Part shown: positions 15,972 through 62,881 of the stretch, piece by piece
Numbering within the stretch: the stretch's first letter is position 1
How the letters are laid out: each line of letters opens with the position of its first letter
Source: a virus
Reading direction: 5' to 3' (one strand)
DNA length: 64,000 bases
IMG/VR virus record: IMGVR_UViG_3300031251_000967
Span: 1-64,000 of that record
The notes under the pieces: model-generated
What the model was told of the DNA's origin: nothing
Database searches by the model: none
Seen by the model: only the letters and a program-made list of their open reading frames with translations
Program-made: the position numbers and the translations under genes

Positions 15972-17096
15972 TCATGTCCAAGTGATCGTGCCGAGTACTG
16001 GCAGCGACCCAACAGGAATTGAGATGTTGGCGTTAGGCACCGAAATCACGAAGCCTGCGGATCCCGGAACGGCACCTATGGCGCTTTCGATATAGGACAG
16101 ATCGACGACACCGCCCTTGGCAGAGCCATATTGCAGGAGCACACCCGCTATGGCAGATGCCACCGCCGACTGAACCGCAGACCCAGCCGTCGAGAGTCCG
16201 CTGATCGTAAAGTTTATCGCCTGTGGCGTCGGTGCCGCCGCATAGACGAGCGCCGTGACCGGTTGCCGTGTGGGCGCAAAGAAATAGTTGGCGACGGTAA
16301 GTTGGTCCCCTGTGGCCGCCGTATCTCGCGTCTCGCCCGTCGCTACGCCGAATGTCCCTTGCGGGAAGCCGTTATGCGCCGCCTGAGCAACGTCCATCAT
16401 GAAGTACACGACGACCGTGCCCGGCCCCATGCCGTTGCGCACGCACCACGCGCGGGTGACGCCGGAGACCTCTAGCGCCCATTCCTCATAGTCGCTCGGC
16501 GCTCCACCCTGCGGCGGTTGCGCGTAAGCCTTCAGCGTGCGCGACCGCAGGCTGTCCATCGTCTCCAGATCGGCACCGCCGGTGAGTGCAGTCGTCGCGG
16601 TGCCGTTCGCCTGAATGCCCGCAATGGCCTGCGCCAGCGTCATCGCGGTTCCGGCGTTCGTGTTGCCGAGCGAACCCGCGGCGTCAGCAATGACGGAGAC
16701 CACTACCGTTCCGCCGACGGAAACCGTACCGTCGGCCGTCGTGGTGTAGCTCGCGCCGTCACCGCGGGCGATGGGGGTGCCGGCAGGAAGGACAGTCCCT
16801 GCTACGCCGTTGAAGGTCACGGCGTTTGTGCCGGACGCAGGGGTCGCCGGCTTCAGCGTAACGTTCTTAAGCGCTGCCCAGCCGAGCAGGTATTCGTCGG
16901 TAGCTGTCCAAGGAACCGCCTGCCGCGCGATCCAGTCGATGTAGCCGAACACGAGGTTGATGAGGTTCGCGAGAACCTTGCCGATGATGCCGAGGTTTGA
17001 GAACCGCAGCAGCGGATCAGAACCCGGCAGCGCGGCCGAAATGTCCTGTGCGGTCTGTTGCTTGAGAACCTTCAGCGTCGGGCGAGCGAAAGGCAT
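15972..17096 (-). CDS. Baseplate J-like protein (Mu gp47 type)
   Basis: 374 residues. ADLETMDSLRSRTLKAYAQP and PSDYEEWALEVSGVTRAWC are typical of Baseplate_J proteins, which form the wedges of contractile tails. The N-terminus (PTLKVLKQQTAQDISAALPG) also matches. Order gp46-gp47-gp48 is as in phage Mu. Confidence 0.92.
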   Translation of the reverse strand: MPFARPTLKVLKQQTAQDISAALPGSDPLLRFSNLGIIGKVLANLINLVFGYIDWIARQAVPWTATDEYLLGWAALKNVTLKPATPASGTNAVTFNGVAGTVLPAGTPIARGDGASYTTTADGTVSVGGTVVVSVIADAAGSLGNTNAGTAMTLAQAIAGIQANGTATTALTGGADLETMDSLRSRTLKAYAQPPQGGAPSDYEEWALEVSGVTRAWCVRNGMGPGTVVVYFMMDVAQAAHNGFPQGTFGVATGETRDTAATGDQLTVANYFFAPTRQPVTALVYAAAPTPQAINFTISGLSTAGSAVQSAVASAIAGVLLQYGSAKGGVVDLSYIESAIGAVPGSAGFVISVPNANISIPVGSLPVLGTITWT

Positions 17097-17097
17097 T

Positions 17098-17697
17098 TCA
17101 GCGGATCCCCTGCCAAGCCCAATCGAATTTCAGCGTGGATTGCGCGCCCTTTGCGGGCTGATACACGGTGATCCGCGCCCCGAGCATTCCGGGGCGCGTC
17201 CACTCGGCGTAGATGTCGATCGACCCGGCGACGCCGTCGTCGATCATCCATTGCAGCGCTTCGGCCATGTATTCCTTGGCCCGCGCCAGCGTTTCGTCAG
17301 TCTGCTTCGCCCGATCCAGCAACCAGAGCCGCGAGCCGATCGGGTAATCTTCGTCGAGATCGCCGAGCCAGCCGCGCCGGTCGTTGGTACCATCCGGAAT
17401 GACATCGTCTGGAAGGGCGGAACGGTCGGTAAAAAGCGAGATGAGAAGGGCGGTCGGCAGGTCGTTTCCGGCCGCCAGATCCGCTTCGTCCATCGCCCAA
17501 TCGCCGCGGCCGTTGGCAACGTCCCAGATCGTCGCGATGTCGCTCTGCCGCCCCACGATAGAGAAGGACGGCGACGATGTCGGAGAACCGCCGCCTCCCA
17601 CAACGACCGTGGTCGACGTGGTCGAAAAGTCGAGAATGAGGCGGTCGCCGCCCAGCGACAGGAAGTCGCCGGACGTGTCGAGAAGGTAATCCGCCAT
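17098..17697 (-). CDS. Baseplate wedge protein GP46 family
   Basis: 199 residues. RRGWLGDLDEDYPIGSRLWL and TLARAKEYMAEALQWMIDDG are GP46/W-like wedge features. The ~40-residue N-terminal hydrophobic/Gly segment (GGDRLILDFSTTSTTVVVGG) is an addition I do not recognise from Mu gp46. ATG 17697 overlaps the stop of the secreted hydrolase gene, so the cargo gene is translationally coupled into the baseplate operon. Confidence 0.85.
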   Translation of the reverse strand: MADYLLDTSGDFLSLGGDRLILDFSTTSTTVVVGGGGSPTSSPSFSIVGRQSDIATIWDVANGRGDWAMDEADLAAGNDLPTALLISLFTDRSALPDDVIPDGTNDRRGWLGDLDEDYPIGSRLWLLDRAKQTDETLARAKEYMAEALQWMIDDGVAGSIDIYAEWTRPGMLGARITVYQPAKGAQSTLKFDWAWQGIR

Positions 17698-19832
17698 CAG
17701 TGCCACACGCGGACGTAGTCAACGTCCATCGGCCAGTTCGTATCGGTGCCGAGGATCACCGGCATGTGGTGGGCATCGCCGACCGAGTAGGTTCCGCCCT
17801 GCGACCACGTCGTCGTGCCGATCAAGTTGCCGTCGAGGTAATACTTGACGTATCCCGAATTCGGCGTGGCCGTCGCCGGCTTCCACGCGGCGCCGAAGAC
17901 GTGCCAGTTGCCATCGGAAGCCCCTTCGGCTGTATGCAGGTCCTGCGTGCCGCCGGGCCAATCGTGAGTGGTCGCTCCATACGCGGTCGCCGACCCGCCG
18001 AAGTTCCACATAAGGAACTCCATGAAGTCGGACTCGAACCACCGCGTGCCGTTGCCCCCGAACAGGTGCTCCGCAGACATCGTCCAGAAGGACGGCCACC
18101 CTCCGGTGCTGCCGCGGGTCGAGGCGTTGAAGCGGATGCGCGCCTCGAAATACGCTCCTCCGCCTTGCGCGAAGCCCTGCCAGCTCGACCCGCTGGAGCC
18201 GACCGTCGCGATAGAGTAGTTCGGCCCCGTGCCATCGCATTTGATGGTGGCGTACCCGTTCTGAACGGAGACGCACGACCCGGAGAGCGCGGACCAGCCG
18301 AACGGCCGGTCGAAGTACCACTTGAAGCCAGCGGCGCGGGTGCCGTTGACATCGAAAGTGCTGATCGAATCCATCTCGTCGTCGAAGACGAGATTGGTGA
18401 AACCGGCCGCCACCGCAGCGGGCGGCGCGGTGATCGTCGAGGACGGCGGCGGGGACGTACTGCCACCGCCGCCGCTGCTCTTCAGCGCATTGCCGACGAC
18501 ACCGGCGATCTGGTCGCCGAGCCACGGATAACCCACCGTGTCGTTCGGGTGCAGGCCGTCCGCAAGGCCAGTTGACGACGGGAAGTTGCTGCTGTCGTCG
18601 ACCAGATAGACGTGATAACTGGACGAGGACCGCGCGGAGATGACTGAGCCGACGCCCGCGTTGAACCCGCTTTCGTCGACCGCCATGGATCCGGTGCGCG
18701 GCAGCAGGTTCGAGACGACGATGTACGCGTTCGGTACCTTGCCGTGGATGGCGTCGAGGAGGACGCCCATCCGTGTCAGAAGTGCCGACGTGCCGCCGCT
18801 CGTGTAGCTGGCATAGGCCGGCGCGTTCTTGGCCCCTGAGTACCCGGAGTTGTCGTTCGTGCCGATCTCGACCACGACGACGTTCGGGTTGGACGCCAGG
18901 ATGCTGGGAGAGGCGTTGACCTTGTCGATGAGGTCGTCGACGCCCTTGCCCGGATAGCCATCATGGCTGTAGGTGCCGTCGGATTGCGTCCCGACATACG
19001 TGACGGTGATGCCGGACTGCGCGAGCTTGGTCTTGAGTTCCGGGCGATAGCTCAGCCCCGCGCCGCCCTGCCCCGCGGTAATGCTGTCGCCAAGCCCGGC
19101 GACGGTAATCGAGGTTAGCGCGGGAGTCCCGGTGGCGTTGTTGGCGACGGTCAGGCTCAGCGGGGCGGACGCCGAATGCGTCGGCTGTTGGTCTGGCGAA
19201 GCGCCGCCGTTGATCCACGCCGCAACGTCCCACGCATTGACCGAGAGCGAGTTCGGGCCGTTCGGCAGACCGTTCGTGTCGTAGGAGAGCGTGACGAGGC
19301 CGCTCGTCCCGGCCGGCGCACCGCCCGCCAGCTTCTTGTTCGTCGAGTCCCATAGCTCGACGTTCAGCATCCCCGGCGCTTGCACCGAGAACTGCGTGAT
19401 GCCGGTGACGGTCGCCCCGGAAGCGGGGGAGAGAACGGAAACCGTGTACTGGGCCGGGGCAGGCGTTGCGAGCGCGGTTCCAATGGTCGCGATCGGCGCC
19501 CACAGCCCAGGCGTGCCGGCCTGAACGTTCACCCACCCGAGAGGCGCACCGGTGGCCGGGCTTGAGTTGTAGATGATCGTCCCGACCGAGTACGTCCCGA
19601 CCGACGGCGGCGCGGACATAGAGGGCGGAGCGAAATTTTGCCTGATCGACGAGAGCGGCGTCTGGACGAGCGTCTTGACGCCGCCGATCGTCTGCACCGT
19701 CAGAACGGTTTCCGTCCCCTGAAGCGCTGCGGCCTGATTCAGGTTCAGCACGGACGTGTCGGCGCGTGCCGTTACGTTCGCGCTCAGCGCGCACGCCAGC
19801 AGCGCCGCCAGACCAAGCAATCTGCGGATCAT
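17697..19832 (-). CDS. Secreted SGNH hydrolase-GH16 glycanase fusion
   Basis: 711 residues with a signal peptide (RRLLGLAALLACALSANVTA, cleavage near ARA). A linker and beta-sandwich region runs to ~235. An SGNH/GDSL esterase domain follows, with GDS (248-250), GTND (324-327) and D425-x-x-H428. After a Pro/Ser linker (~455-475), residues ~480-711 form a GH16 beta-jelly-roll with the catalytic motif ESDFMEF (E600, D602, E605). SGNH enzymes often deacetylate sugars; GH16 enzymes cleave beta-1,3/1,4-glucans or galactans. It lies between baseplate genes gp45 and gp46, so it could be a virion depolymerase, but a cleavable signal is odd for one. ATG 19832 (GAGG upstream) is preferred to TTG 19844. 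Confidence 0.85.
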   Translation of the reverse strand: MIRRLLGLAALLACALSANVTARADTSVLNLNQAAALQGTETVLTVQTIGGVKTLVQTPLSSIRQNFAPPSMSAPPSVGTYSVGTIIYNSSPATGAPLGWVNVQAGTPGLWAPIATIGTALATPAPAQYTVSVLSPASGATVTGITQFSVQAPGMLNVELWDSTNKKLAGGAPAGTSGLVTLSYDTNGLPNGPNSLSVNAWDVAAWINGGASPDQQPTHSASAPLSLTVANNATGTPALTSITVAGLGDSITAGQGGAGLSYRPELKTKLAQSGITVTYVGTQSDGTYSHDGYPGKGVDDLIDKVNASPSILASNPNVVVVEIGTNDNSGYSGAKNAPAYASYTSGGTSALLTRMGVLLDAIHGKVPNAYIVVSNLLPRTGSMAVDESGFNAGVGSVISARSSSSYHVYLVDDSSNFPSSTGLADGLHPNDTVGYPWLGDQIAGVVGNALKSSGGGGSTSPPPSSTITAPPAAVAAGFTNLVFDDEMDSISTFDVNGTRAAGFKWYFDRPFGWSALSGSCVSVQNGYATIKCDGTGPNYSIATVGSSGSSWQGFAQGGGAYFEARIRFNASTRGSTGGWPSFWTMSAEHLFGGNGTRWFESDFMEFLMWNFGGSATAYGATTHDWPGGTQDLHTAEGASDGNWHVFGAAWKPATATPNSGYVKYYLDGNLIGTTTWSQGGTYSVGDAHHMPVILGTDTNWPMDVDYVRVWH

Positions 19833-19856
19833 CGGTAGCCTCAAGGTTCGGTAGGG

Positions 19857-20417
19857 TTATTCTTGCTCGTTCGGCACTTCGGTATTGATCGTGCTGGAGC
19901 CGGTCTGGACGTTCTTCACCTGATGGTGGTGCCCGTCGTAGATCGTCCTCATGCTCTGCATGCTGCGCGGCGTGGCCGCATCGCAGCGGTCGGTAATGTC
20001 GCCGGTGACGAACAGGTTCGCGGTCTCCATCCGGACACTCGGCGTATCCGTGATCTTGATCGGCAGGCCGCCCCCGTCGATTACGATGCCCGACCGCGTC
20101 AGGTGAACCTTTTGACCAAGGTCGTCATGGACTGCCGCCTCACCGTCGGCGAGGTGTAGCCGGTAGCGCTGGTCGCCGGTAGCGATGACGACGCCGCTCG
20201 ACCGGTCTCCAGAGATGAATAGGGCGACGGCATCCGCGCCGGGGTGCGGGCGGGAGGTGAACCCGTACTCGGCAAGCCGCGGTGTGCCGTCCCGCACCTC
20301 GTCGGCACCAAGCCGAATCTGCACGATCTGCACCGCGCCGGAATCGTCGGTCGTGGTGATCCGCCCGCGGCCGATCGCCATCATCAACCTTCGATAGATC
20401 CGGTCGACAATGTCCAT
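19857..20417 (-). CDS. Baseplate spike/assembly protein V, Mu gp45 type
   Basis: 186 residues. IYRRLMMAIGRGRITTTDDS, ADEVRDGTPRLAEYGFTSRP with a histidine-rich C-terminus (DGHHHQVKNV) fits the Gp45/baseplate V family, whose beta-helix forms the membrane-piercing spike. The His cluster may bind metal at the tip. Confidence 0.9.
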   Translation of the reverse strand: MDIVDRIYRRLMMAIGRGRITTTDDSGAVQIVQIRLGADEVRDGTPRLAEYGFTSRPHPGADAVALFISGDRSSGVVIATGDQRYRLHLADGEAAVHDDLGQKVHLTRSGIVIDGGGLPIKITDTPSVRMETANLFVTGDITDRCDAATPRSMQSMRTIYDGHHHQVKNVQTGSSTINTEVPNEQE

Positions 20418-20457
20418 TAATCTTCGCCTTCTCAGTTCACTCGGTCAGGGGTTCCCG

Positions 20458-21156
20458 ATGCCGTCGAAACTCATCATCACCCTCGCAGCGGTGCTGGTCT
20501 GTGCGGGATGCGCGCCCGACCGTGAGGCGGCACGAGCGCAATACTTCGCGCAGCGTCAGGCCGAGGAGCGCGCCCGCGAAGAAGCCGGAGCAGCGCGGCG
20601 ACATGCAGAAGAACAAGCTCGGCAGGATGCTCTTGCTGCTAACGAGCGGGCGGCGGCCGAGGAACGCGCGCGGCGCGTTATCCAAGACCAGCGCGAACAG
20701 GAGCAGCGCGAAGCCGATCAGCGGGCAACCGCCGAACAAAAGCTGGTCGCCGCCCGCGTGGAAAAAGAACGCGGTTACAAGCGGATGTCGCTTGGCGATT
20801 TTCTTGTCGACTGGCGCGACATGCCGACTGGCACCCACGTTTCCGTCACTGCCCTACACACCTTTGCCGGATCAGTGAGCGTTCTATCCACGGGCGTGCT
20901 AGGGAACCCGATTGTCGTCTTGCTTACCGATGGACTCCCGCGCCAGAGCCGAAAGATGCTTTTGGACTGCCACGCCTACAATACGTGGTGTCGCATTCGC
21001 ATCCGCGGTCGAACCGGATGTGCCGCGACCAGGGACGGTATTCCTTCAGGCGAGGCGTGCCTTATCGCTGAATCTGTTGCCGATAACGACGAGCCAAGCC
21101 CATATGCCCCGGCCCGGGTCCACTACGATCTGCCGGACGGCAGGAGGAATCCTTAA
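20458..21156 (+). CDS. Lipoprotein opposed to the tail operon, C-terminus like the tape measure
   Basis: 232 residues. A signal ends in lipobox CAGC (~residues 15-18); residues ~20-105 are a long charged coiled coil (EEARAREEAG-type), and the C-terminal ~120 residues form a Cys-containing domain. It is the only plus-strand gene inside the late minus-strand tail block, which suggests expression in the lysogen. Its last 18 residues share 11 identities with the tape-measure protein's C-terminus and both end in NP-stop. A superinfection-exclusion role is inference. Confidence 0.8.
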   Translation: MPSKLIITLAAVLVCAGCAPDREAARAQYFAQRQAEERAREEAGAARRHAEEQARQDALAANERAAAEERARRVIQDQREQEQREADQRATAEQKLVAARVEKERGYKRMSLGDFLVDWRDMPTGTHVSVTALHTFAGSVSVLSTGVLGNPIVVLLTDGLPRQSRKMLLDCHAYNTWCRIRIRGRTGCAATRDGIPSGEACLIAESVADNDEPSPYAPARVHYDLPDGRRNP

Positions 21157-22538
21157 CTCGCGAGGGCGCGGAACGACGTCGGCATGAAGCCCGGATGCAC
21201 CACGTCCGCTTCGGCAATCAGCTCATCCGCCCGCGAGGCGTCCTGATAGAGCTTCATGGCGATGAGCGGCGCCGGCAGCGGCGCGGCGAAAGAAACCGTG
21301 ATGACGCGTGGAAGCCCGGCCCCGCGGGCATTCATGTCGGCGACCACCGCCGCCTTCAGCGCCCGGAAGGCTGAGAACACCGAGTCCTCTCCCTGATCGC
21401 CCGCCGTATCGATCTCGGCATCAAGGAGCGTCACCACCGCATCTCGTACCGTTGCCGCGTCATCCTGGCTTGCCGGCTGATAGGCTGCTGTCGCGCGTGC
21501 CAGCGCAGACACCGCCGCGCGCCGCCACAGGTCGGAAGTCGCGGATTGCGCGGTCGCGACCGATGCCGACCCCTGAGACACGAGCGGAACGAAGGTCGCG
21601 AGAACTTGAAAGATCCGAACCCGGTCGGCGGGATCCGATGTGGCGCTTCCGAGCGTCGCCATCACCGCCTGAGCCTTGGCCCCCAGATCGGCAGTCGTGC
21701 TGGCACTCAGCGACGCTGCCGAGGACTGCGCCGCTGATACAGCCGCCGTCGCATTCGCCCGCGACTGCGCGCCTGACGCGATCAGGTCGGATACCGTTTT
21801 CGGTGGCTTGCTTGTGGCGGAACTATCCCCGGTCACGCCCAGAAGCGTCGCGGACGCACCATCGAAGAACCGCCCGAACTCTCCTGGAAGCGCCTGGACA
21901 GTCCGAAAGAGAGACGTGGCGTCCGCAACCAGCGAAAACGCCTGCCCGCCATATTGCTGAACCGTGCCTACCACGGACTGCACGACGGCAGCCCCTTGCT
22001 GAAGCGCTGCCGCTATGCGGCTGCCGAAGCTGTCTGCGGCTGCGCTATCGGCATCGTCGGCGGCGGCAAGCGTCTCCTGCGGGGTTGCGGTGATGGAAAC
22101 CGGGTAGATGCGAGGCGTCGAGTTGACGAACGAGAATTCCAACTCGGCGAACCGGCCCTCGATCGTATGCGTGATCGCAAAATCAAGAAGTGAAAACCGG
22201 TTGCGGCCGAATTGAGGGTGGACCAGTTCTCCGCCCTGGTCATCCGAATCCCGCTGCTGACATACCGCCGCCATGCGCTTCGACTGCGCAATGACGTCGT
22301 CGCCGAGCAGGAACCCGACGATGTGGATGACCTGCCGTCCACGGCCGAGGTCTTCGACCCATGGCGCGTCGCGGTTCGGATAGTCGTGAACCACGTTCCG
22401 CCGGCCGAAGCGCGCCCGCGAGGTCGTGACGCCGAACGGCACGCCCTTCCATAACGCAGACTGAAGCTGCCCACGGTAGGACAGCCCAGCGGCGCCGAGA
22501 AGCGCGCTGACGTCGTTGATGAAGCTGCCGATCGTCAT
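21153..22538 (-). CDS. DNA circularisation/tail protein N, Mu gp43 type
   Basis: 461 residues. The N-terminal ~130 (GSFINDVSALLGAAGLSYRG, VEDLGRGRQVIHIVGFLLGD) match DNA_circ_N proteins; the rest is Ala/Ser-rich helix. In Mu-like tails this protein lies between tape measure and hub. Its stop meets the opposing lipoprotein gene's stop with a four-base overlap. Confidence 0.88.
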   Translation of the reverse strand: MTIGSFINDVSALLGAAGLSYRGQLQSALWKGVPFGVTTSRARFGRRNVVHDYPNRDAPWVEDLGRGRQVIHIVGFLLGDDVIAQSKRMAAVCQQRDSDDQGGELVHPQFGRNRFSLLDFAITHTIEGRFAELEFSFVNSTPRIYPVSITATPQETLAAADDADSAAADSFGSRIAAALQQGAAVVQSVVGTVQQYGGQAFSLVADATSLFRTVQALPGEFGRFFDGASATLLGVTGDSSATSKPPKTVSDLIASGAQSRANATAAVSAAQSSAASLSASTTADLGAKAQAVMATLGSATSDPADRVRIFQVLATFVPLVSQGSASVATAQSATSDLWRRAAVSALARATAAYQPASQDDAATVRDAVVTLLDAEIDTAGDQGEDSVFSAFRALKAAVVADMNARGAGLPRVITVSFAAPLPAPLIAMKLYQDASRADELIAEADVVHPGFMPTSFRALAS

Positions 22539-22539
22539 C

Positions 22540-23664
22540 TCAGTACGGCCCCGCGTTCAGGAGAGGCGTAATCGGCACGGGCAGCACATCGAACGCCGCC
22601 GCCGGCATAACGGTCAGCTCGGCCGCCGTTCCGCGCTCGTCACGGCGGAACATCACGGAGCCGATGACCCATTCCGTCTGGCTCGCCGCCGCGGCGTTGA
22701 CCTTGAGCGTCGGGATCCGGATCGGGATGATGGTGTTAGGCGTCCAGAGGTTTCCGGAGCCGTCCCGCCAGCTATCTACCGTGACGTGTATCTGCGTCGA
22801 CCGGCCGAACCGCCGGCTCGCTTCCCACTCTCCGCGCGCCCGCGCGTAATCGTCACCCATGCCGGCCGGTGTTTCGGCAATGATGTATTTCGGTCGGAAC
22901 CGTGGCACGCCGCCGTCTTGAATCGTCGCGACGATGTCGCCTTCGGGGTTCGCCCCGCCGTCCGCGAACGGCGAGAACGTAAGCCGGCGCACCCGATATT
23001 GGCTGTAGCGGTCGTGCATGCTGTACTGCACGCTCGCTTGCTGGATGTTCGCGCCCTCGACGACACCCGTCGACATGCTCCCGTTTCCGACGCGAGACAG
23101 GACGAGGTTGCCGTTCGCGTCCTCATAGACGAGGAGAGCCGCAAACCGGGCAATGCGCTCGATCAGTTCATAGGGCGTCTCGCCCCACATGATGACGAGC
23201 TGCGGAACCACCCGCTCCTCTCCGCTCAATTGTGAGACGGAGATTCCGAAGGGCTTGGCGAGGCTCTGCGCGATCGTCAGAACCGACTGGTTGTTGAACT
23301 GCCCCGTGGACCAGACAGCGGAGCAATCAACGAGGTCCTGCCCCCTGCCCCGGCCGACGATGCGCAACGAGTGCTGTGACGCGCTCAACCCCGGCGTAAC
23401 GCTATCGATGTAACCGGACACGACAAGATCGCGGCCGAGCCCACGGGTGATGAACACTTGGCACGGATCGCCAGGGCGCACCGGAACGTCGATGGTCGCG
23501 CTCGGATACCGCTCCGTAGCCACGATCTCGAAGACGGACGGGAAGAACTCGCACGACCGCTGAATGCGGACGCTCTCCCACCCGCCTAAGTCGTAGATAC
23601 TTGACCGGTTGAGCGGGGTTTCCGTCTGGTACGGGCCCACCCGGATAACGACATCATCATCCAT
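22540..23664 (-). CDS. Baseplate hub protein, Mu gp44/P type
   Basis: 374 residues, with the Mu P/late-control-D pattern: VRIQRSCEFFPSVFEIVATE, SGYIDSVTP, NNQSVLTIAQSLAKPFGISV, ETPYELIERIARFAALLVYE. It forms the trimeric hub on which the spike sits. Confidence 0.9.
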   Translation of the reverse strand: MDDDVVIRVGPYQTETPLNRSSIYDLGGWESVRIQRSCEFFPSVFEIVATERYPSATIDVPVRPGDPCQVFITRGLGRDLVVSGYIDSVTPGLSASQHSLRIVGRGRGQDLVDCSAVWSTGQFNNQSVLTIAQSLAKPFGISVSQLSGEERVVPQLVIMWGETPYELIERIARFAALLVYEDANGNLVLSRVGNGSMSTGVVEGANIQQASVQYSMHDRYSQYRVRRLTFSPFADGGANPEGDIVATIQDGGVPRFRPKYIIAETPAGMGDDYARARGEWEASRRFGRSTQIHVTVDSWRDGSGNLWTPNTIIPIRIPTLKVNAAAASQTEWVIGSVMFRRDERGTAAELTVMPAAAFDVLPVPITPLLNAGPY

Positions 23665-23673
23665 GATGGGCGC

Positions 23674-25236
23674 TTACGGGTTAACCGCGCCGGTCGGCAT
23701 GCTGTAGTGAACGCGCACCGGAGCGAAGGGAGAACTGCTGTTCGCAGAGACCGAGGAACCGGCCGGGGTCGTCACATGCACGTCGACCCGCGCGTTCTGC
23801 CCCTGGCCGCCCGATCCACCCTCGGCCATCGCCGCCTTGATGGCCTGCGCATACTGCTCTGGCGTGAACGGCTGCTTTCCCTGCTCCTGCTTGACGATCG
23901 CCGAAAGGATCGAAGCGTTCGTTTCCTCGCTGCCGTCGATCGGCGCGTTCGGCAGGATGCCGGTTCGCTCGGAGACCTTGCGGATGTAGGCTTCGGTGTC
24001 GTTCTCGTTGGCGGGAGCCCATCGGCCGACGATTCCCGAAACCGTGTTGATGCCGTGCTTCCGCTCGTAGGCGATCAGATTCCGCGCTGCCGCGTTCAGG
24101 CCGTCTTCCGGGCTGGCGTAGGTCTGGAACGCATTCTGCCCCGGCACGCGGAGATTGCCGGGGTTGTTCCGCTTGATCCCGCTCGCGCCGAGCAGATCGA
24201 CGCTGGCGGCCGTTGCCGCGCCGGTGACACCGCCGACGATCGCGCCGCCGAGCGCACCCGGCCCGGCACCGATGCCGCCGAACAAAGCGCCGATGCCGGC
24301 CCCCGTAGCCGCGCCGGCCGCCGCGCCGCCAGCCGCACCACTGAGGATCACGCCAAGGTGAGCGAGTGGCCCAAGCGACTGCGTCGCCTTGTTCGCCCTC
24401 TCCGCCAGATCGCCGAGCCAGTCGACGATCTTCTTGAGACCGGGCGCTAGGATCAGTTCCGCGTTCTCCGCCGCGCCGGTCATGTTCTCGCCGAGCTTGG
24501 AGAGCGACTTGCCGAGAGATGATCCGGCATCCGCCGCAGCCCCTGCGTTCGGGCGGAACTGCGCAGCCGAGTTCGTGAGCTGGTCCATATTCTCGACGAG
24601 CCGCCGGATATCCTCCGGCTGGCCAAGGGCGTTCAGGATGGCGTTCTTGCCCTGCACCGTCGGAGCGCGCTCAAGAGCCCGCGCCAGGTCGCGGTAAGCC
24701 GACGCCACGTCCGCTTGGCCGTTGGCGTCGTACTTGGCGCGGATGCCGAGCTGGGCGAAGTAGCCGGCCATCTGAGGATTGCGGCCCGACAGCACGTCGC
24801 CGATGTTCTTCGCCATCGCGGACGCGCCCTGCGTCGCCGTCTCACCCGACAAGCCGCCAAGGCGAGCCGCCGACTGGAAGCGGGCAAGCTGGTCCGCGCC
24901 GATCCCGATCCGGTATGCTGTGTTCGTCGCCTGCAAGCCCATGTCCGCCCACTGCCGCGTGAGCGCGGCGAGACCAGACACGGTGCCGATACCGGCCAGC
25001 GATCCGGCAGCGCCGCTGACAGATCCGAGCTTGTCCAACATCGCGTTTGCAGCGGTGCCGGCCGAACTCAGCGACTTCGCAACCTTATCGAGCCCGGTAT
25101 CCTTGCCGATCTTGGACAGCACGTCCTGCGTGTTGCGGATCGGCTTCGTGAACTTCTCAACCGCCGCGGTGACCTTGTTGATGATCGCCGACGCGTTGTC
25201 GGCGGCGGTGATGTTGATTGCAAAAGCGTTCGCCAT
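23674..25236 (-). CDS. Tape measure protein with embedded lysozyme-like domain
   Basis: 520 residues, short for a tape measure. Residues 1-290 are helical; 294-345 form a Gly-zipper membrane-active stretch; residues 353-427 (IKRNNPGNLRVPGQ, FQTYASPEDGLNAAARNLIA, IVGRWAPANENDTEAYIRKV) are a virion-associated peptidoglycan-processing domain. The end reads SPFAPVRVHYSMPTGAVNP. ATG 25236 overlaps the stop of the frameshift ORF (TGATG). Confidence 0.9.
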   Translation of the reverse strand: MANAFAINITAADNASAIINKVTAAVEKFTKPIRNTQDVLSKIGKDTGLDKVAKSLSSAGTAANAMLDKLGSVSGAAGSLAGIGTVSGLAALTRQWADMGLQATNTAYRIGIGADQLARFQSAARLGGLSGETATQGASAMAKNIGDVLSGRNPQMAGYFAQLGIRAKYDANGQADVASAYRDLARALERAPTVQGKNAILNALGQPEDIRRLVENMDQLTNSAAQFRPNAGAAADAGSSLGKSLSKLGENMTGAAENAELILAPGLKKIVDWLGDLAERANKATQSLGPLAHLGVILSGAAGGAAAGAATGAGIGALFGGIGAGPGALGGAIVGGVTGAATAASVDLLGASGIKRNNPGNLRVPGQNAFQTYASPEDGLNAAARNLIAYERKHGINTVSGIVGRWAPANENDTEAYIRKVSERTGILPNAPIDGSEETNASILSAIVKQEQGKQPFTPEQYAQAIKAAMAEGGSGGQGQNARVDVHVTTPAGSSVSANSSSPFAPVRVHYSMPTGAVNP

Positions 25237-25375
25237 CACGCGCCGTCCTTACCGTTCATCCGCACCGCTTGAGCGGTCCACCACTGGATTTCCGACCACG
25301 TCAGAGACCAAGCGTCCTTTGGCCCCCACCCGTAGAACTTCGTCAGGTCTGCGACGGAGTCTCGCCAGTCTCGGG
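25236..25375 (-). CDS. Tail-assembly chaperone extension, reached by -1 frameshift
   Basis: In the -1 frame relative to the chaperone gene an ORF continues past its stop: PRDWRDSVADLTKFYGWGPK, then DAWSLTWSEIQWWTAQAVRM, ending at the TGA that overlaps the tape-measure ATG. It has no good start codon of its own. A C-run (CCCCC at 25377-25373) and a TTTTA further upstream are possible slip sites. Long-tailed phages commonly make a chaperone fusion this way (known mechanism); the exact slip point here is inference. Confidence 0.65.
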
Positions 25376-25639
25376 GGAGGCGTTCATAAAAGCCCCGAGA
25401 TATTCCGACGCCGCGTTGAAGTCGCGCGCGCCGAGCTTTTCCAAGAAAGGCTTGTCGATGCCGGTGATGAGGTTGATCAGCAGCAGCGTCGCGGAGACGC
25501 CGCCGTCCCGCGCAATGGCTCGGGTGAACTTGTCCAGTTCGCCGGCCGTAGGCTCGCGGAGAGCGAGGCTCTGCACCTCGCCCTTTGCTGTCACCAGCGG
25601 CTTGCGGAGGGCGATCGTCAGTTCGTCCTTTAGGTCCAC
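25343..25639 (-). CDS. Tail assembly chaperone, Mu gp41-like (Phage_TAC)
   Basis: 98 residues. LTIALRKPLVTAKGEVQSLA, LREPTAGELDKF and a C-terminal DFNAASEYLGAF are typical of the small TAC family between tail tube and tape measure. It would coat the tape measure during assembly. Confidence 0.88.
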   Translation of the reverse strand: MDLKDELTIALRKPLVTAKGEVQSLALREPTAGELDKFTRAIARDGGVSATLLLINLITGIDKPFLEKLGARDFNAASEYLGAFMNASPETGETPSQT

Positions 25640-25640
25640 G

Positions 25641-26018
25641 TCAGATCTCCGTCACGCGAGGCGCTTCCCACTTCACGTCAAGGGTCGCTTCGGCTGAATC
25701 CACGTCCTGCGCGTCGACGGTCCAGGCGCCGGAAGCCATTACCGTCTTGCCGTTCGCGAGTTGCAGCACGACAGTTTCATCGGTCATAGCATTCAGGGCC
25801 GCAACACTGAGTCCGCCCCCATCACGCAGTGACGCCACGATGTTTCCAGGGACCGGCGTCTCCTTGAATCCATGGACGCCGTCCATGCCGACGACGGTCT
25901 CGCGCGTGACGGTCGAGACCCTGTACCCCGCCTTTCCGGCCACCTGATACGGCGTCCCATTAATCGACAGGTATGCGATGCCGGCGAGAAAGTTCGGCGT
26001 GCCGACTTGGCTGGTCAT
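25641..26018 (-). CDS. Tail tube protein, Mu gpM type
   Basis: 125 residues, about the family length. AGIAYLSINGTPYQVAGKAG, TVVGMDGVHGFKETPVPGNI and ASGAWTVDAQDVDSAEATLD identify the contractile-tail tube subunit. It sits between sheath and chaperone genes, as expected. Confidence 0.92.
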   Translation of the reverse strand: MTSQVGTPNFLAGIAYLSINGTPYQVAGKAGYRVSTVTRETVVGMDGVHGFKETPVPGNIVASLRDGGGLSVAALNAMTDETVVLQLANGKTVMASGAWTVDAQDVDSAEATLDVKWEAPRVTEI

Positions 26019-26037
26019 GGCGAATTATCCTTCCGGC

Positions 26038-27843
26038 TTACGAGAGGCGGAACTGCGCGAGCAGGGCGAAGATATCAAGCTGCTCGATCAAGGTCGGTGG
26101 GAAGAGCACGTCCACGCGGTTCGGATTGGACGGGTTGATCTGCACGATCAGTGCCTGAGCAAATTCCTTGCTCTTCTGGACCTGCCCTTCCGCTTCGAGC
26201 TTCTGATACTCGGAGATGATGTCCGCCTTGATGATCTTCGGCGTGACGATGTTCGAGCCGGCCGCAAACTGCGTCCCATCTGCGGCCAGCTTCACCCGCG
26301 CATATTTGGTCGTGACCACGGAGGCGAGGCGCCGCAGGATGTACATCAACTGGTACATCGTGTTGACGCGCAAATAGCTGTCGTCCGGCTGCCCGAAGCT
26401 ATTCTGCTGGTACGTGGTGATGAGCCGCTGAATGAGCACGTTCCCGGCGGCATCGACCTTGTATGTGGAAACGCCGCTGTAAAGGAGACTGTTCTCGCTT
26501 GACAGATTGAACCGCGACTGAACGGGCGGTGCGAGAACGTCCTGAAGGACAACATCACGGATCGGGATGCCAGGGTCGGCGCGAACGCTGATCGCAGTCT
26601 GCGCAGCGATGGCCGAAGCCCACTTCCATGAAGGTGTCGGCGAGTCATGGAAACCCATGTTCGACCCGTGCTGGTCGTTCCGGGTCGGGCCAAACGCCAT
26701 CTGATTGGCGAGATTGCCGCGATAGGCGTAGAAGAAACCGCCGTAGATTTGCGACGCCCACGACCACCGTCCCGACGTGTCGTTGAGGAACGCCTGGAGC
26801 GCATTCAGCGTGGTCGCATCGGTGTACGGGCATGCGATGAAGTCGAACGGCATGTCGCCGAGGTTCGCCAGCAGCGCCGCGATGCTCGGCGTGCCGGTGC
26901 CGCCCGACATCGGCACGATCGCAACCTGCATGCCGGTCGGAAGGGACTGCCCGCCGGCCGTTCCGAGGTAGTTCACCCGAAGGTCGATTTCGTTGCCAAC
27001 CACGCCGCCGTTCTTGGCGGTGAGGGTGACGACGGCGCTTGCGGCCGAAGCGGTCACGGCCAGATCGTTGTTCGCGTTCACCGCTGCGGCAATGGCGCTC
27101 GCCACCTGAGACGTGGTCGCGCTCGCCGCGACGGTCACCGGGACGTAGATACCGCCCACGTACAGCGCCAGCGTCCCATTGGCGGTCGGCGGGTTGGTCA
27201 CGGTAATCGTACCGGTCGCCTGAATAGCCGTCACGCCTCCCGAGAGCGTCGCGCCGGAAAGCGTGATCGCGGTCGATGACTTGGCGAGCGACAGACCGTT
27301 GCCGGCGCTGCCGCGCGTAACGGAAGTGATGTTCAACACCGAGCCGACGACGGCATAGGTGCACTTGACGATGTTCGTATCGGCCGAGGTCTGGAGGAAG
27401 CCCAGCAGGTTCGCCAGCGTCTGCGCCAGCGTGGATCCGATGAGAACCTGAAGTCCGCTCGGAGCGGACGAGACGAAGGTGACGGCCGTTCCAGCGATCG
27501 TCAGCGTGTCGTTGGCGGCCGGGTTCGCCGAGAAGGTCGCGGAGCCGGTGGCGGCAGTATTGTCGGACAGCGGGCCGTACCAGAACTCGCCGAACGTGTC
27601 GTTCCGGCGGTAGGCATAGGCCATCTGCGCCAGGACGGATCCCTGACCGCACACGCTTTTGGCATCGGTCACGCCAGCGGAGATTACCGGGATATCCGGC
27701 GCCAGGGTTCCGGCGCTCGTGATTTGCCCGATCAGCAAGGCGCGCTGATTGATCGTCGCCGTGTTCGCCTGACTCGGGTCGACTTCGGCGTAAAACAGGG
27801 GCACCCGGATGCCGGCCGGGATGTTCTTGAATGCTAGCGTCAC
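26038..27843 (-). CDS. Tail sheath protein, Mu gpL type with inserted domain
   Basis: 601 residues, about 100 longer than Mu gpL. The start ([20 protein letters not shown]) and end ([39 protein letters not shown]) match the Mu sheath. Residues ~98-205 ([20 protein letters not shown]...[19 protein letters not shown]) are an additional beta domain that recurs in other phage structural proteins. It would face outward on the sheath. Confidence 0.92.
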
Positions 27844-41301: not shown

Positions 41302-44300
41302 TTACCTCGGCTTGCAGGAATGCATCATGAAAGTCAGGTTGTTGGTGGCGATGATGTTGTCCGCATCGCACCAACTCTTGATCGTGCTGTAAGCCGCCTT
41401 GCAGGCCGAATAGCGGGCGGGAAGCGCCGACAGAGCCGCGATCCCCCACCGCCACGTCAGCGAGTATTCCGGGATCACCCCGCCGTTGTTCAGCCCGCCA
41501 TGCGGCCACATGTGCACGACCTGCTGAGGACTGGTGACGGTCGCTGGACCGGAGAGGATCCAGTTCGTTCCCGTCCCCTGCGTATTCGCCGGCAGCGGAT
41601 TGTTGTTCGGAAACGGAGCGATGATCGTGGCCGTCACGGTATCCGTGATGCTCGATCCGCTCGCATTCGTCGCCGTGATCCGCGCCTCGCCCGCATAGAT
41701 CCGCAGGCTGCTCGTCGATGAGAACGTGACGTTCGTCGTCATCGCCGCCGACGTGAACAACTGAAGCGTGTTTACGTCGACAACGTGTGCATAGTAGGTC
41801 GTCCGCGGGGCGAGGCTCGTCGGGAACGCGCCGTTGCTGCTGCTGACCCGAACCGGCTGGCCCTCGCTGTACCCGTGAGCCGTCAGCGTAACCGTTCCGG
41901 CTGAGGCATTGAGGACGGTGATGTTCCGCTGCGTCCCGGCGATAAAGCCGGTGACGTGATCGGCGTAGAATACCGGCGTGTTGGCCTGGAACGTCACGGT
42001 GTTCCCGACCACCGTTGCGTCACCACTCGCGATCGACAAAGAGGCAATCGGGCCGGGCGCGGTATAGGTCGCTTGGTTGGTGTCGGTGTTCCCGTTCGAC
42101 GGGAAGTATTCGAGGAATGCCGACCAGAGATCGGCCATCGACGTGACATAGCCGTAGCTGGCGCCGCCCTTGTGCACGAAGGGGAAGTTCGTCACGTACC
42201 CGAGGTAGCGGGCCTGAACGCCTGGATTCGCGAACGCCTGATAGAGAAGATCACCCAACCAGTCGAACAGCGCCTGCCCGTTCGTGTCGAGGAGTTCGTT
42301 CTCGTACAGGTTGCAGAACTGCTCGGCGTTGTAGGTGACCTGCCACATCACCGTGTTGTGGTTCGATCCCCACCAGTGGCAATCGCCCTTCTGAGCGGCC
42401 GTGATCCCGTATCCATCCGGCCCGGTGACGAGCGCGCTATACCCTTGCGACAGCCAGTTCGAAAGCAGCGTCCGCAGGCTCCCGCTCGGAGACGTGTCCA
42501 TGACGATGCCCGAGGTGTACGGGCTGTCGGGAGCGTGGATGGTGGCGTGGATGAGATCGCGGAAGAACCAGGACACCTGCCGCGGCTGCGCCGTCGCATT
42601 GGCGCTCGGGCCCCAGCAGGATCTGTTCAGGCCGTTCCCGTTGTTGTTCAGCAGAAGCCATCGCGCGGTGACGTTATGCTGAAGCGCCTCAAGGAATTTC
42701 AGGTCTCCAGTCAAAAGATATGTCAGCCGGCACTTCGCGTTGCTGTGCGCGATGTCGGTGTTCCACCAGGAGAAGTTGCCGTAGTAGTTGTCGACGCCGA
42801 CAGCGCGCTGAGCATAGAACTGCGGGCTGAACGTCGGCTGCGGCCCGGTCGAACCGTTGGCGGCATAGTTCGTGCGGATGGCCGGATCCAGCGGCAGCCC
42901 GGTGTTCTCGTCCCTATGGAAGATCGGCGAGGCGAAGATGGAATGCGCGCGATCGTGCGCGCTCCGCCACGCGTCCCATGTCCCGCTGATCAGCCAATAG
43001 AGTTCGAACGAGCTGTCGCTCCCGATGCCTGCATCGACACCCGACGTAGACTCGAACAGGAAGTACCCGAAGTGATTCCCATCCGGCCCGGTATAATAGA
43101 ACGGGCTGTAATCGCGGCCGTCAGGACAAGTCGTCGGTGCGGAGATGCCCGGCAACCCATCGAGGGTGCCGCGCTGCGTCGTCGCGGTGCTCGCCGCAGT
43201 CGCCGCCGACGGTTCGTCGATCGCGTAGTTCTGGATAACCCTTGTCGAGACGAGATAGTAGTTGTCGAACGCCACGTAGTGCCGGGGCACCACGTTGTGC
43301 CACGTCCGCAGCGCCGGCAGAGTGAGCCGGGTTCGGTTCGGGATCACCAGCCCGAGGATCTTCCAGCCCGTCGAGGGAACGGTGATGCCGTAGGTGACGT
43401 CGATCAACGAGCTGAGCGCGCCCGACGGCCCTGCCTGCCCGCCATGGCCGACTTGGATGTTGGCCGGGTTCGATCCCGTGTAATTGATCGAGGAGATCGT
43501 TTCCCACTGATATGCAGAGTAGCTGTGCGCGTGCGCCGTCGGGCCGACGATCCCGGTTTCCGTGAACGATGCCCCGGTGTCCGTCCGGACGCCGTTGATC
43601 GTGAACGTCGCCCCGCTGTTGTCGCTCGCCGAGTAGAAGCGGACGGTTCGCCCGCCTTCCATGCGGACGTAGGCCACGCCTCCCGATACGCACTGCCCGT
43701 TCAGCGTCAGCGAACCGCCGGTCGGGCTCTGCGTCTTGCAGATGCTGGACAGTGTCTGCGGGCAGAACCCCGTGATGCCGGTGATGCCGGGCGAGACGTG
43801 CGCCAGAACCTGGGCGCCCGTTCCACCGCCGCCCGTGATCGACGGGGCGCCGCCGAGCTGGGTCGGCAGCGTCGGATAGACCGCGACGACCGACCCACCG
43901 CCGATCACCGCCGCAGCATTGCTGTTGCTGTTGGCGACCGTCGGGTTCGAGGTGAACCCGCTGCCGGCCGCCGTGACGACATAGCCGTCAGGGTTCTTGA
44001 CGACGGCCGCCGCGCCGGTCCCGCCGCCCCCCGAGAACGAGATCGTGCCGACGGTCCCAGCCGCAGTCACCGTGACCGACTGGACACCGCCGCTCGCGAC
44101 CGTTGCTGCGAGAACCGCCGTACCGCCACTGTTTACCGTCGGTGCCGACGTGTAGCCGCTGCCCTTCGCGGTAACGACGATGGTCGGCTGATTGGCATCG
44201 CGAATGTAGATCAACTGCCCGTTGGCGTTGATCACCCTCCCCGCATGAGAGGGATCGAACGTGAACGTGCCACCCGTGACATAGGCCGAACAGAACTGCG

Positions 44301-45663
44301 TCGCCCAAGACGAACCGCTGAATGCGCCGTAGGCGATGTTCAGCGCCGCATCCGATGTTACCGCCGTGCGGCTCCAGACGACCGCATTGCCCTGCTTGAG
44401 CGTGATGCTTTCGATCGGCACGCAGCCGTTTCCGACCGAGGCGACGTTGCCGTTCTCGATGTACGGATCCGTGCGGACGTCCTGGATCGTCCCGCCGGGA
44501 TGGTAGACGCGGACGTGGAAGCCGGCGAGGAGGATGCGGTGCGGGGCGTGGCCCGACGTGGTCCACACCGGCATCGTTGCCACGAACTCGGTGCAGAGCG
44601 GGTTCTTCGTCCAGATGCCGCGGAAGCTGGGAGCGGTGTTGCTCCAGGTCGACGAGCCCGCAAGGGCCGTATTGGCGTCCGCCGTGTAGGCGACGCCGTC
44701 GATCGTCAGCGACCACGTGACGTTCCATCCATTGGCGGATGCCCAGGACTGGAACGCCGCTAGGGTGATACCGGTGTGCGTCTCCGATCCCGATACCGCC
44801 TTGACATCGAACAGCGCCGACGTGGGGTTGCCCATCGGATCGGTGAGCGAGGCCGTTCCGGGTAGGCTCGGAACCTGATAGTGCAGCGTCGCGTACTTCA
44901 GCGAACCGTCGGACCAGAACTTTTCGTGGTCGATCCCCTGCGCCGAAAGCTGCGAACCGCCGTGGGCAAAGACGCGCGGGACGAATCCCGCCGGGATATC
45001 GCCCTTCTTGAACGGCATCCCGTGGCTGACGAGCACGTTGCTCAAGGCCCCGCCGGAACCGGGATTGGACGGCGTCGAGAGGATGCCGAGCGACGTGACG
45101 GCGGTGAGGTTGTGGTCGTTGACGCTGATCGTAACGGGCTGGTCGACCGACGTTCCGTTCTGCGTCGCGTGGATCGTGATCGACGGCGTGGACGCTCCTG
45201 CGGGAAGTGCCGCAGCAACTGTGACGTGTCCGGCTGCGTCGATCGCGAACTCGCTATTCGGGTTGATGGTCAAGGACAGCGTGCCAGCGAAGGGGCTTCC
45301 ATCCGACATCGTGACAGTAGCAGTCCCGACGAGCGTTCCAACCGGCGCATTGTCGAGGACCGAGCCGCCTGAGAACGAGATCCCGGTCGGGACGGTCCCC
45401 GTGCCCGTCGCTGCGGCTAGCCCTTCCTGGACAAGGAAGTCACCGAGCGGATTCGGGATGGTGTAATTCGCGCCCGTCAGATACCGCGTCGTGCCTTCCA
45501 GCCAGTCCTGGCTCATCGTCAGGGCTGTCGACCCAGCCGGCGTTCCGGAGGCCCATCCCCGCTTGATCAGCCGATCGGCGATGGCGTCCGCGACCGTGTA
45601 CGACTGGCCCGACGTGTACGTCGTCGCGCCGAGCCGGAACGTGCGTGTCGCGGTAATGAGCAT
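41302..45663 (-). CDS. Giant 1453-residue adhesin/depolymerase-like virion protein
   Basis: 1453 residues. Residues 1-40 (TRTFRLGATTYTSGQSYTV) match the fold pattern of the small protein encoded just upstream. ~90-185 is a cadherin-like Ig domain (SVLDNAPVGTLVGTATVTMS). A long Gly-rich beta region follows, with repeated TVTAAG-type units. Residues ~880-1240 look like an alpha/alpha-barrel (VDNYYGNFSWWNTDIAHSNA, DCHWWGSNHNTVMWQVTYNA), as in polysaccharide lyases and glycoside hydrolases. Then another beta domain and a Trp/Cys end. I infer a receptor-binding depolymerase; the catalytic class is not certain. Confidence 0.75.
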   Translation of the reverse strand: MLITATRTFRLGATTYTSGQSYTVADAIADRLIKRGWASGTPAGSTALTMSQDWLEGTTRYLTGANYTIPNPLGDFLVQEGLAAATGTGTVPTGISFSGGSVLDNAPVGTLVGTATVTMSDGSPFAGTLSLTINPNSEFAIDAAGHVTVAAALPAGASTPSITIHATQNGTSVDQPVTISVNDHNLTAVTSLGILSTPSNPGSGGALSNVLVSHGMPFKKGDIPAGFVPRVFAHGGSQLSAQGIDHEKFWSDGSLKYATLHYQVPSLPGTASLTDPMGNPTSALFDVKAVSGSETHTGITLAAFQSWASANGWNVTWSLTIDGVAYTADANTALAGSSTWSNTAPSFRGIWTKNPLCTEFVATMPVWTTSGHAPHRILLAGFHVRVYHPGGTIQDVRTDPYIENGNVASVGNGCVPIESITLKQGNAVVWSRTAVTSDAALNIAYGAFSGSSWATQFCSAYVTGGTFTFDPSHAGRVINANGQLIYIRDANQPTIVVTAKGSGYTSAPTVNSGGTAVLAATVASGGVQSVTVTAAGTVGTISFSGGGGTGAAAVVKNPDGYVVTAAGSGFTSNPTVANSNSNAAAVIGGGSVVAVYPTLPTQLGGAPSITGGGGTGAQVLAHVSPGITGITGFCPQTLSSICKTQSPTGGSLTLNGQCVSGGVAYVRMEGGRTVRFYSASDNSGATFTINGVRTDTGASFTETGIVGPTAHAHSYSAYQWETISSINYTGSNPANIQVGHGGQAGPSGALSSLIDVTYGITVPSTGWKILGLVIPNRTRLTLPALRTWHNVVPRHYVAFDNYYLVSTRVIQNYAIDEPSAATAASTATTQRGTLDGLPGISAPTTCPDGRDYSPFYYTGPDGNHFGYFLFESTSGVDAGIGSDSSFELYWLISGTWDAWRSAHDRAHSIFASPIFHRDENTGLPLDPAIRTNYAANGSTGPQPTFSPQFYAQRAVGVDNYYGNFSWWNTDIAHSNAKCRLTYLLTGDLKFLEALQHNVTARWLLLNNNGNGLNRSCWGPSANATAQPRQVSWFFRDLIHATIHAPDSPYTSGIVMDTSPSGSLRTLLSNWLSQGYSALVTGPDGYGITAAQKGDCHWWGSNHNTVMWQVTYNAEQFCNLYENELLDTNGQALFDWLGDLLYQAFANPGVQARYLGYVTNFPFVHKGGASYGYVTSMADLWSAFLEYFPSNGNTDTNQATYTAPGPIASLSIASGDATVVGNTVTFQANTPVFYADHVTGFIAGTQRNITVLNASAGTVTLTAHGYSEGQPVRVSSSNGAFPTSLAPRTTYYAHVVDVNTLQLFTSAAMTTNVTFSSTSSLRIYAGEARITATNASGSSITDTVTATIIAPFPNNNPLPANTQGTGTNWILSGPATVTSPQQVVHMWPHGGLNNGGVIPEYSLTWRWGIAALSALPARYSACKAAYSTIKSWCDADNIIATNNLTFMMHSCKPR

Positions 45664-46340: not shown

Positions 46341-46498
46341 GGCCTACCCCTTTCAGGTGCGTACTGGTCGTTTGGGAGTGTCCGATTGCTTTACAGAGCG
46401 TCGGATCAGCGCTTGCCCGCGAGCCTGAAAGCCGCGGAATTCTTGCTATGGCACGTAGTTTGCGGCAGGCTTGGCATAGCCCAACTACCGGTTGGAAC

Positions 46499-62106: not shown

Positions 62107-62173
62107 ACACTAACCGCACCGGTAAGAGATGTCAACCGAAACGGAAAGTGACTTACCTTACCAAAACGGTAAG
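62107..62173. promoter_or_regulatory. Operator cluster (three 17-bp sites) and cro promoter
   Basis: Sites: CTAACCGCACCGGTAAG (62110-62126), weaker TCAACCGAAACGGAAAG (62132-62148) and CTTACCAAAACGGTAAG (62157-62173), with centres 22 and 25 bp apart. On the minus strand TTGACA (62135-62130), 17 bp, TAGTGT (62112-62107) forms a strong promoter for the cro-like gene. Site 1 lies between its -35 and -10, so repressor binding should block it. Confidence 0.85.
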
Positions 62174-62215
62174 ACTCCTGGCATATGGACTTTTGGTCAG
62201 AGAGGCGAGCGGCGC

Positions 62216-62881
62216 ATGAACAATTTGCGCGCAATTAGAGAGATGCGGGGCCTTACACAAAAAGAATTGGCCGATCGCATAAATACGACCGATGTATCGG
62301 TTTCGCGGTATGAGAGCCAAGATAGCAGACTGAACCTGCCACTTCTCCGCCAATTGGCGAACGTCCTTAATGTATCGGTCGGGCAGATCGTGGGCGAAAG
62401 GCCCTTGCCTTCCGAAGTGGAGAAAGTAAGGATACCTACCGGTCAGAAGATAAGGGTGGATGATACCAATCCGGTCCCCCTTCTCCGCTGGGAGGAAATC
62501 GAACCTTGGTTGGGCTTGACACCGTCCGAGCGTCGCGCGAAACAAAGCGAGAACATTTGGACGGACCAGTCCGTGGATGAAAACACCTTCGCTATCCGGC
62601 TCGTCGATACCAGCAACGCGCCAGAGTTTAATCCTGAGGAAGTAATTATCTTCAAGGTTATGACACCACGTCCCGGCGACATGGTCTTGGCGAAGCGCAA
62701 GGGCGCAATTGATTGCGTTTTCCGCAAATATCGCCCGCTTGGCCCGTGCTCTGCCACTGGACCTGTCGTATGCGATCTCGTCCCCCTTAATCCGGACTGG
62801 CCGACTATCCGGCTTGACGGCGAGCATCTTGGCGTCATCCACGCGGTGATGATTGAGCATCGCCGCTACAGGAAGCCGTGA
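62216..62881 (+). CDS. CI-like repressor with S24 (LexA-type) C-terminal domain
   Basis: 221 residues. XRE HTH at ~14-34 (TQKELADRINTTDVSVSRYE) and an S24-type C-terminal fold: Ser133 in VDTSNAPEF, PRPGDMVLAKRKG, and probable Lys171 (CVFRKY). That pair suggests RecA-stimulated self-cleavage, so the prophage is probably DNA-damage inducible. ATG 62216 with AGAGG upstream is chosen over the longer reading, which would overlap the operators. Confidence 0.9.
   Translation: MNNLRAIREMRGLTQKELADRINTTDVSVSRYESQDSRLNLPLLRQLANVLNVSVGQIVGERPLPSEVEKVRIPTGQKIRVDDTNPVPLLRWEEIEPWLGLTPSERRAKQSENIWTDQSVDENTFAIRLVDTSNAPEFNPEEVIIFKVMTPRPGDMVLAKRKGAIDCVFRKYRPLGPCSATGPVVCDLVPLNPDWPTIRLDGEHLGVIHAVMIEHRRYRKP

Follow-up and report, generated by a model that had tools for sequence, protein, structure and literature searches.

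A prophage lipoprotein gene with a mimic of its own phage's tape-measure terminus, a candidate for superinfection exclusion

The C-terminus of the phage tape-measure protein (TMP) is where several known exclusion systems converge, without a clear mechanism. Ltp of Streptococcus thermophilus phage TP-J34 (PMC3952083), HK97 gp15 and P22 SieA (PMC10883804), SNIPE (PMC13190303) and Tab (PMC10884400) act on TMPs or ejection proteins, several of them on C-terminal regions, and the specificity of Ltp has been linked to the C-terminal region of the TMP (PMC3952083). In phage Mu, the only modelled part of the TMP (gp42, 690 residues) is its last 17 residues, 674-690, which form an ordered trimer (PMC11915804; PDB 9ki1). 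Together with the hub gp44 and the spike gp45, this trimer seals the distal tail channel (PMC11915804). In these papers, none of Ltp, HK97 gp15, P22 SieA, SNIPE and Tab is described as copying a TMP end, and full-text searches of the open-access literature brought up no case of an accessory phage protein reported to mimic a TMP.

In this report, we describe a predicted lipoprotein encoded among the tail genes of a Mu-like phage, the end of which resembles that of the phage's own TMP. The stretch of DNA that was analysed, 64,000 nucleotides in length, is called the window.

The lipoprotein gene and the end of the tape-measure protein

The features under discussion are listed in Table 1. The lipoprotein has 232 amino acids, and a second in-frame ATG lies upstream of its start, at 20410. 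The gene is convergent with gene 43 on the opposite strand, and the two stop codons overlap at TTAA (21153-21156). A preliminary description of this DNA had called it the only plus-strand gene of the tail block; it is indeed the only convincing one within 15972-27843, and the phage has other plus-strand genes elsewhere. The lipobox mentioned there is present in an imperfect form (VCAGC, with Cys at -3), and the long coiled coil corresponds to a helix that is the only part of the protein for which AF2 gave a confident structure.

Table 1. Coordinates of the features discussed, as positions in the window
Feature	Position	Strand	Basis
Lipoprotein gene, with TMP-end-like C-terminus	20458..21156	+	ORF list, own-record search, C-terminus pair comparison
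Predicted signal peptide and lipobox, MPSKLIITLAAVLVCAG followed by C18	20458..20511	+	Sequence, hydrophobicity score
Long helix, residues 22-106	20521..20775	+	AF2 pLDDT >90
Cys-containing C-terminal region, without family match, low-confidence model	20776..21096	+	Profile searches, AF2
TMP-end mimic, SPYAPARVHYDLPDGRRNP	21097..21153	+	Own-record search, C-terminus pairs, covariation, codon-position count
Spike gp45 homologue, probable partner of the TMP end	19857..20417	-	Profile search, alignment to Mu
gp43 homologue (DNA_circ_N, tube initiator)	21153..22538	-	Profile searches
Hub gp44 homologue, probable partner of the TMP end	22540..23664	-	Profile searches, alignment to Mu
TMP with phage endolysin/transglycosylase-like domain (about 350-470)	23674..25239	-	Profile searches
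C-terminal plug segment of the TMP, SPFAPVRVHYSMPTGAVNP, the mimicked stretch	23677..23733	-	TMP alignments/profile, pair comparison; Mu structure PMC11915804
CI-like repressor	62129..62881	+	Searches

Over their last 18 residues, the lipoprotein and the TMP share 11 identities (12 of 19 once the preceding Ser is counted), and both terminate in NP-stop. The DNA of the two ends is identical at 33 of 54 positions over the last 18 codons. Both the likeness of the termini and the divergence of their DNA had been noted in the preliminary description, and both hold. Searched against the 75.5-kb record of its phage, the lipoprotein matched nothing but itself and the end of the TMP (27 aa, 58%, E 9.2e-4). 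We also compared C-terminal 30-mers of all window ORFs of at least 80 aa, using ordinary sequence scores for these short tails. The lipoprotein/TMP pair ranks first of 89,676 pairs (score 74; next, 53), and none of 20,000 shuffles scored as high. Against 30 related TMP ends, the lipoprotein end scores 12-46, with its own TMP ranking first of the 31. Judged from these comparisons, the lipoprotein mimics the end of the TMP.

A C-terminal module, which close to the end reads approximately V-x-V-x(4)-N-A-P-P-G-T ... P-x-R-V-x-Y-x-M-P, is conserved in Mu-like TMPs of bacterial genome loci and of several viral contigs; the lipoprotein carries the last part of this module alone. Since copying is restricted to the last 18-19 residues, the lipoprotein gave no significant match (E 0.06-0.8) to a profile of the 48-residue TMP end. 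The hub and spike of this phage align with Mu gp44 and gp45, and the Mu TMP end is too divergent for sequence alignment with that of the window. By position, not by sequence, the mimicked segment appears equivalent to the plug of Mu that binds hub and spike.

Searches of Pfam and PHROG gave no match to an Ltp-family domain in the lipoprotein, and other family assignments from these searches were rejected. No homologues were found in viral contigs, phages, plasmids or 395 Acetobacterales genomes, and relatives are absent from all other Mu-like loci examined (loci bear L numbers below); weak candidates in L115-L118 were rejected as shadow frames. An identity as an Rz/Rz1-like spanin was likewise rejected, since the match (E 0.04) is composition-driven and covers residues 6-71 only. 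This weak match is what could be said for an ordinary lysogenic-conversion or lysis (spanin-like) lipoprotein whose similarity to the TMP is coincidental. However, the match is confined to the N-terminal and coiled-coil stretch, and the similarity to the TMP is far above chance and is replicated at the same site in other phages (see below). We therefore strongly disfavor this explanation and find it very hard to credit.

Codon usage in the lipoprotein frame is the best of six frames yet low, as for an acquired gene, and is ambiguous. A scan limited to the sigma-70 consensus recognized no promoter for the gene, and terminator-like matches fall within the ORF.

Other genes of the phage include one for a 715-aa protein (17697-19844, minus strand), located between the spike gene and the next tail genes. 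It has a signal-peptide-like start and a GDSL lipase domain (Pfam E 4.6e-13), no Pfam match covers its C-terminal half, and it is possibly a tail-associated esterase. An Acyl_transf_3 acyltransferase (46448-47464, plus strand; E 4.2e-21) may represent a lysogenic-conversion gene that modifies the surface, with a possible effect on phage adsorption as well. A 1453-aa protein (41302-45663, minus strand) has a marginal PHROG match only (E 6.6e-4).

The insertion site beside gene 43 and matches to the own tape measure

Among 235 relatives with both genes, the junction of genes 43 and 44 is a recurrent insertion site at which the inserts vary among loci. The window has the gene order TMP-44-43-45, which is swapped in comparison with Mu and the relatives examined (TMP-43-44-45); despite this swap, the lipoprotein gene still adjoins the 3' end of gene 43. 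As an insert between conserved genes that is absent in relatives, the gene is a moron, or accessory prophage gene.

Predicted exported proteins are encoded on the opposite strand at this site in L036, L040, L056, L064, L083, L243, L256, L272, L279 and L138, and membrane proteins in L139/L244, L224, L205 and L267. Signal peptides, which were assessed with a simple hydrophobicity score and by eye, are found in the window lipoprotein, in L040 and in L064/L243/L309. Around the site, four prophages of Azospirillum cavernae share 97-99.7% identity, and L040 alone has the gene, as a clean 535-bp insert (46% GC in surroundings of about 70%) that is absent from its three sister prophages. Toxin-antitoxin-like pairs, so named by sequence inspection only, lie on the opposite strand between 43 and 44 in L147, L149 and L153. 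A family of predicted exported proteins ending in KPLN (L056 9502-9948, L256 6104-6595, L272 1525-2070, L068 9398-9973 on the minus strand) is also encoded on the opposite strand and adjoins gene 44; three of these genes lie at the 43/44 junction.

To survey such matches broadly, each TMP end was compared with all other C-termini of the same locus, for a total of 95,313 comparisons covering 54,832 ORFs in 278 loci. The highest scores belong to the window lipoprotein (72) and the L040 gene (58; SYLPTPQNYTAPEFKRP against its own TMP end VFAPTRVNYSTPDFARP), followed by an L287 gene (52). The last has the same score as an Arg-rich noise pair in L218, so the raw score would not single it out, and its case rests on nine of nine identical terminal residues (YPMPEMVTP in both proteins) and on the location of the gene at the site. 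The convincing matches in this screen lie at the gene 43 site, and the motif is thus not scattered among unrelated proteins.

The preliminary description had proposed looking for covariation with TMP ends among relatives. We found it among 15 genes assigned to the site by their position. Of the 15 TMP ends, that of the own phage scores highest for the window, L040, L287, L064 and L243, although the matches of L243/L064 are weaker, and it is also top, at noise level, for L219 and L224. Permutation of TMP ends among the 15 genes gives p 5e-6; p is 1e-5 when the window is left out and 6e-4 when the three strongest cases are removed.

A further scan found homologues of the L287 gene, the DGYxGG family, that are likewise located at the site. 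L299 (...THSIQTLPAG; TMP, ...SHAMPTLAAG) and L304 (...VHEMKTLPAG; TMP, ...NHSMNTLSAG) match their own TMPs at 5-6 of the last 10 residues, the match of L303 is weaker, and L298, L219 and L283 show little or no terminal mimicry; permutation inside the family gives p 0.002, and permutation with each family represented by a single member gives p 1e-5. No TMP mimicry was seen in the KPLN family, L083, L279, L036 or the membrane families. About half of the same-site genes, in what is a modest gene set, lack it. The ends of site genes do not match their own gp43 and gp44 ends. Taken together, these alignments show unrelated gene families at one site (the window lipoprotein, L040, the L287 family and L243/L064) whose termini match the TMP end of their own phage.

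The tails are also constrained as protein. In three pairs of tail and TMP end, the matches by codon position number 33, 33 and 20 of 48. In L287, the DNA of the tail agrees with that of the TMP end at 23 of 27 positions, and all four differences are synonymous (P about 0.002 for random single changes). Divergence at third codon positions and the synonymous differences of L287 imply that the tail is maintained as protein. A functionless by-product of recombination, in which insertions copied the 3' end of the TMP gene onto incoming genes, might have been suspected from the close DNA match of L287. This explanation is highly unlikely in our estimation, given that third positions diverged while the protein was kept, that the L040 tail has 50% DNA identity with its TMP end in a gene of 46% GC, and that the phenomenon recurs at one site only, in unrelated families. 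DNA-level duplication as the sole explanation is similarly disfavored by the L040 insert, the codon-position matches and the synonymous changes in L287.

A proposed decoy of the tail plug

Because a CI-like repressor is present, the phage is probably temperate. We propose that the lipoprotein gene is a prophage superinfection-exclusion gene whose product presents a copy of the TMP plug peptide as a decoy, probably directed at the hub or spike of related incoming phages; we give this proposal an even chance of being correct. The accessory gene, inserted beside gene 43, lies opposite the late operon, and this orientation would make it expressible in a lysogen and opposed during late transcription. 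The product would be exported and probably lipid-anchored, with the helical stalk holding the plug-peptide copy in the periplasm. Export would separate the lipoprotein from the assembling tails of its own phage. Once a related phage has pushed its tail tip into the periplasm and released its TMP and spike from the hub, the peptide on display would rebind the TMP-binding site of gp44 or gp45, or block release. DNA delivery would then stop, which would amount to homotypic superinfection exclusion.

The preliminary description suggested that the lipoprotein could imitate the TMP tip at a membrane receptor, as a possible means of excluding superinfecting phages. The imitation and the likely purpose of exclusion are supported, the receptor less so. 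Since the corresponding 17 residues of Mu bind hub and spike (PMC11915804), these two proteins appear to be the better-grounded target. The displayed tail might alternatively occupy a factor in the inner membrane or periplasm of the host on which the TMP end depends for DNA entry; mimicry and covariation are compatible with any partner of the TMP end. The HK97 TMP with PtsG/FkpA and the lambda TMP with ManYZ provide analogues of such a host factor. In lambda, labelling during injection places the TMP beside ManZ (PMC13190303). However, the mimicked residues already have an identified partner in Mu, and the wide variation of TMP ends between phages better suits a phage-encoded partner than a conserved host one. 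We consider a host factor unlikely.

A different possibility is that the protein disturbs a rival's tail assembly in the cytoplasm by competing with the TMP for hub and spike, with a Tab- or Tai-like outcome. The DGYxGG family is modelled as a small globular domain, its hydrophobic N-terminus forming a strand and there being no clear signal peptide, and this family may act in the cytoplasm; fold searches with the model returned nothing significant. The prophage gene for Tab, too, lies on the minus strand in a late region, and the specificity of Tab has been mapped to the TMP C-terminus (PMC10884400). By contrast, the signal peptides of the window lipoprotein, L040 and L064/L243/L309 would remove these proteins from assembling tails, and interference with assembly strikes us as distinctly unlikely.

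Residues of about 350-470 of the TMP match phage endolysin and tail injection transglycosylase families, and in some phages the exported site genes could instead target such an activity.

Beyond the window, unrelated proteins that independently acquired a copy of their own TMP plug, and that re-plug or lock the hub and spike of same-type phages, could constitute an undescribed immunity class, for which we suggest the name "tail-plug decoys". We offer this generalization tentatively, at a little short of an even chance. If it is true, repeated mimicry tuned to the own sequence would mark contacts of the TMP end as a target in competition between phages, what the plug does in DNA delivery would become testable, and a sequence-based route would open to exclusion genes that have no homologues.

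Comparison with known systems

Ltp is a prophage-encoded lipoprotein outside the cytoplasmic membrane (PMC3952083), a location predicted, with an imperfect lipobox, for the window protein as well, and the TMP C-terminus is involved in both cases. The parallel in mechanism that the preliminary description drew does not extend further. Ltp acts on the TMP C-terminus, interacting with the TMP via repeat domains, and its gene is in the lysogeny module, whereas the window protein copies that C-terminus and is encoded in the tail block. HK97 gp15 is a prophage moron for superinfection exclusion at the envelope, and sensitivity to it is set by tail tube/TMP genes (PMC10883804). It differs in being a predicted inner-membrane protein, with no TMP mimicry described for it in the papers cited here. 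Tab of phage JBD26 is the product of an accessory gene that a temperate phage carries on the minus strand of its late region, and sensitivity to it maps to the TMP C-terminus (PMC10884400). However, Tab is a tail-assembly blocker that requires anti-Tab, and a copy of the TMP end is not described for it. The C-terminal plug of Mu gp42 (PDB 9ki1), which binds hub and spike (PMC11915804), corresponds to the mimicked stretch, but it is the structural protein itself and is divergent in sequence from the TMP end of the window. Conditional on activity, the lipoprotein would represent a variant of TMP-directed superinfection exclusion.
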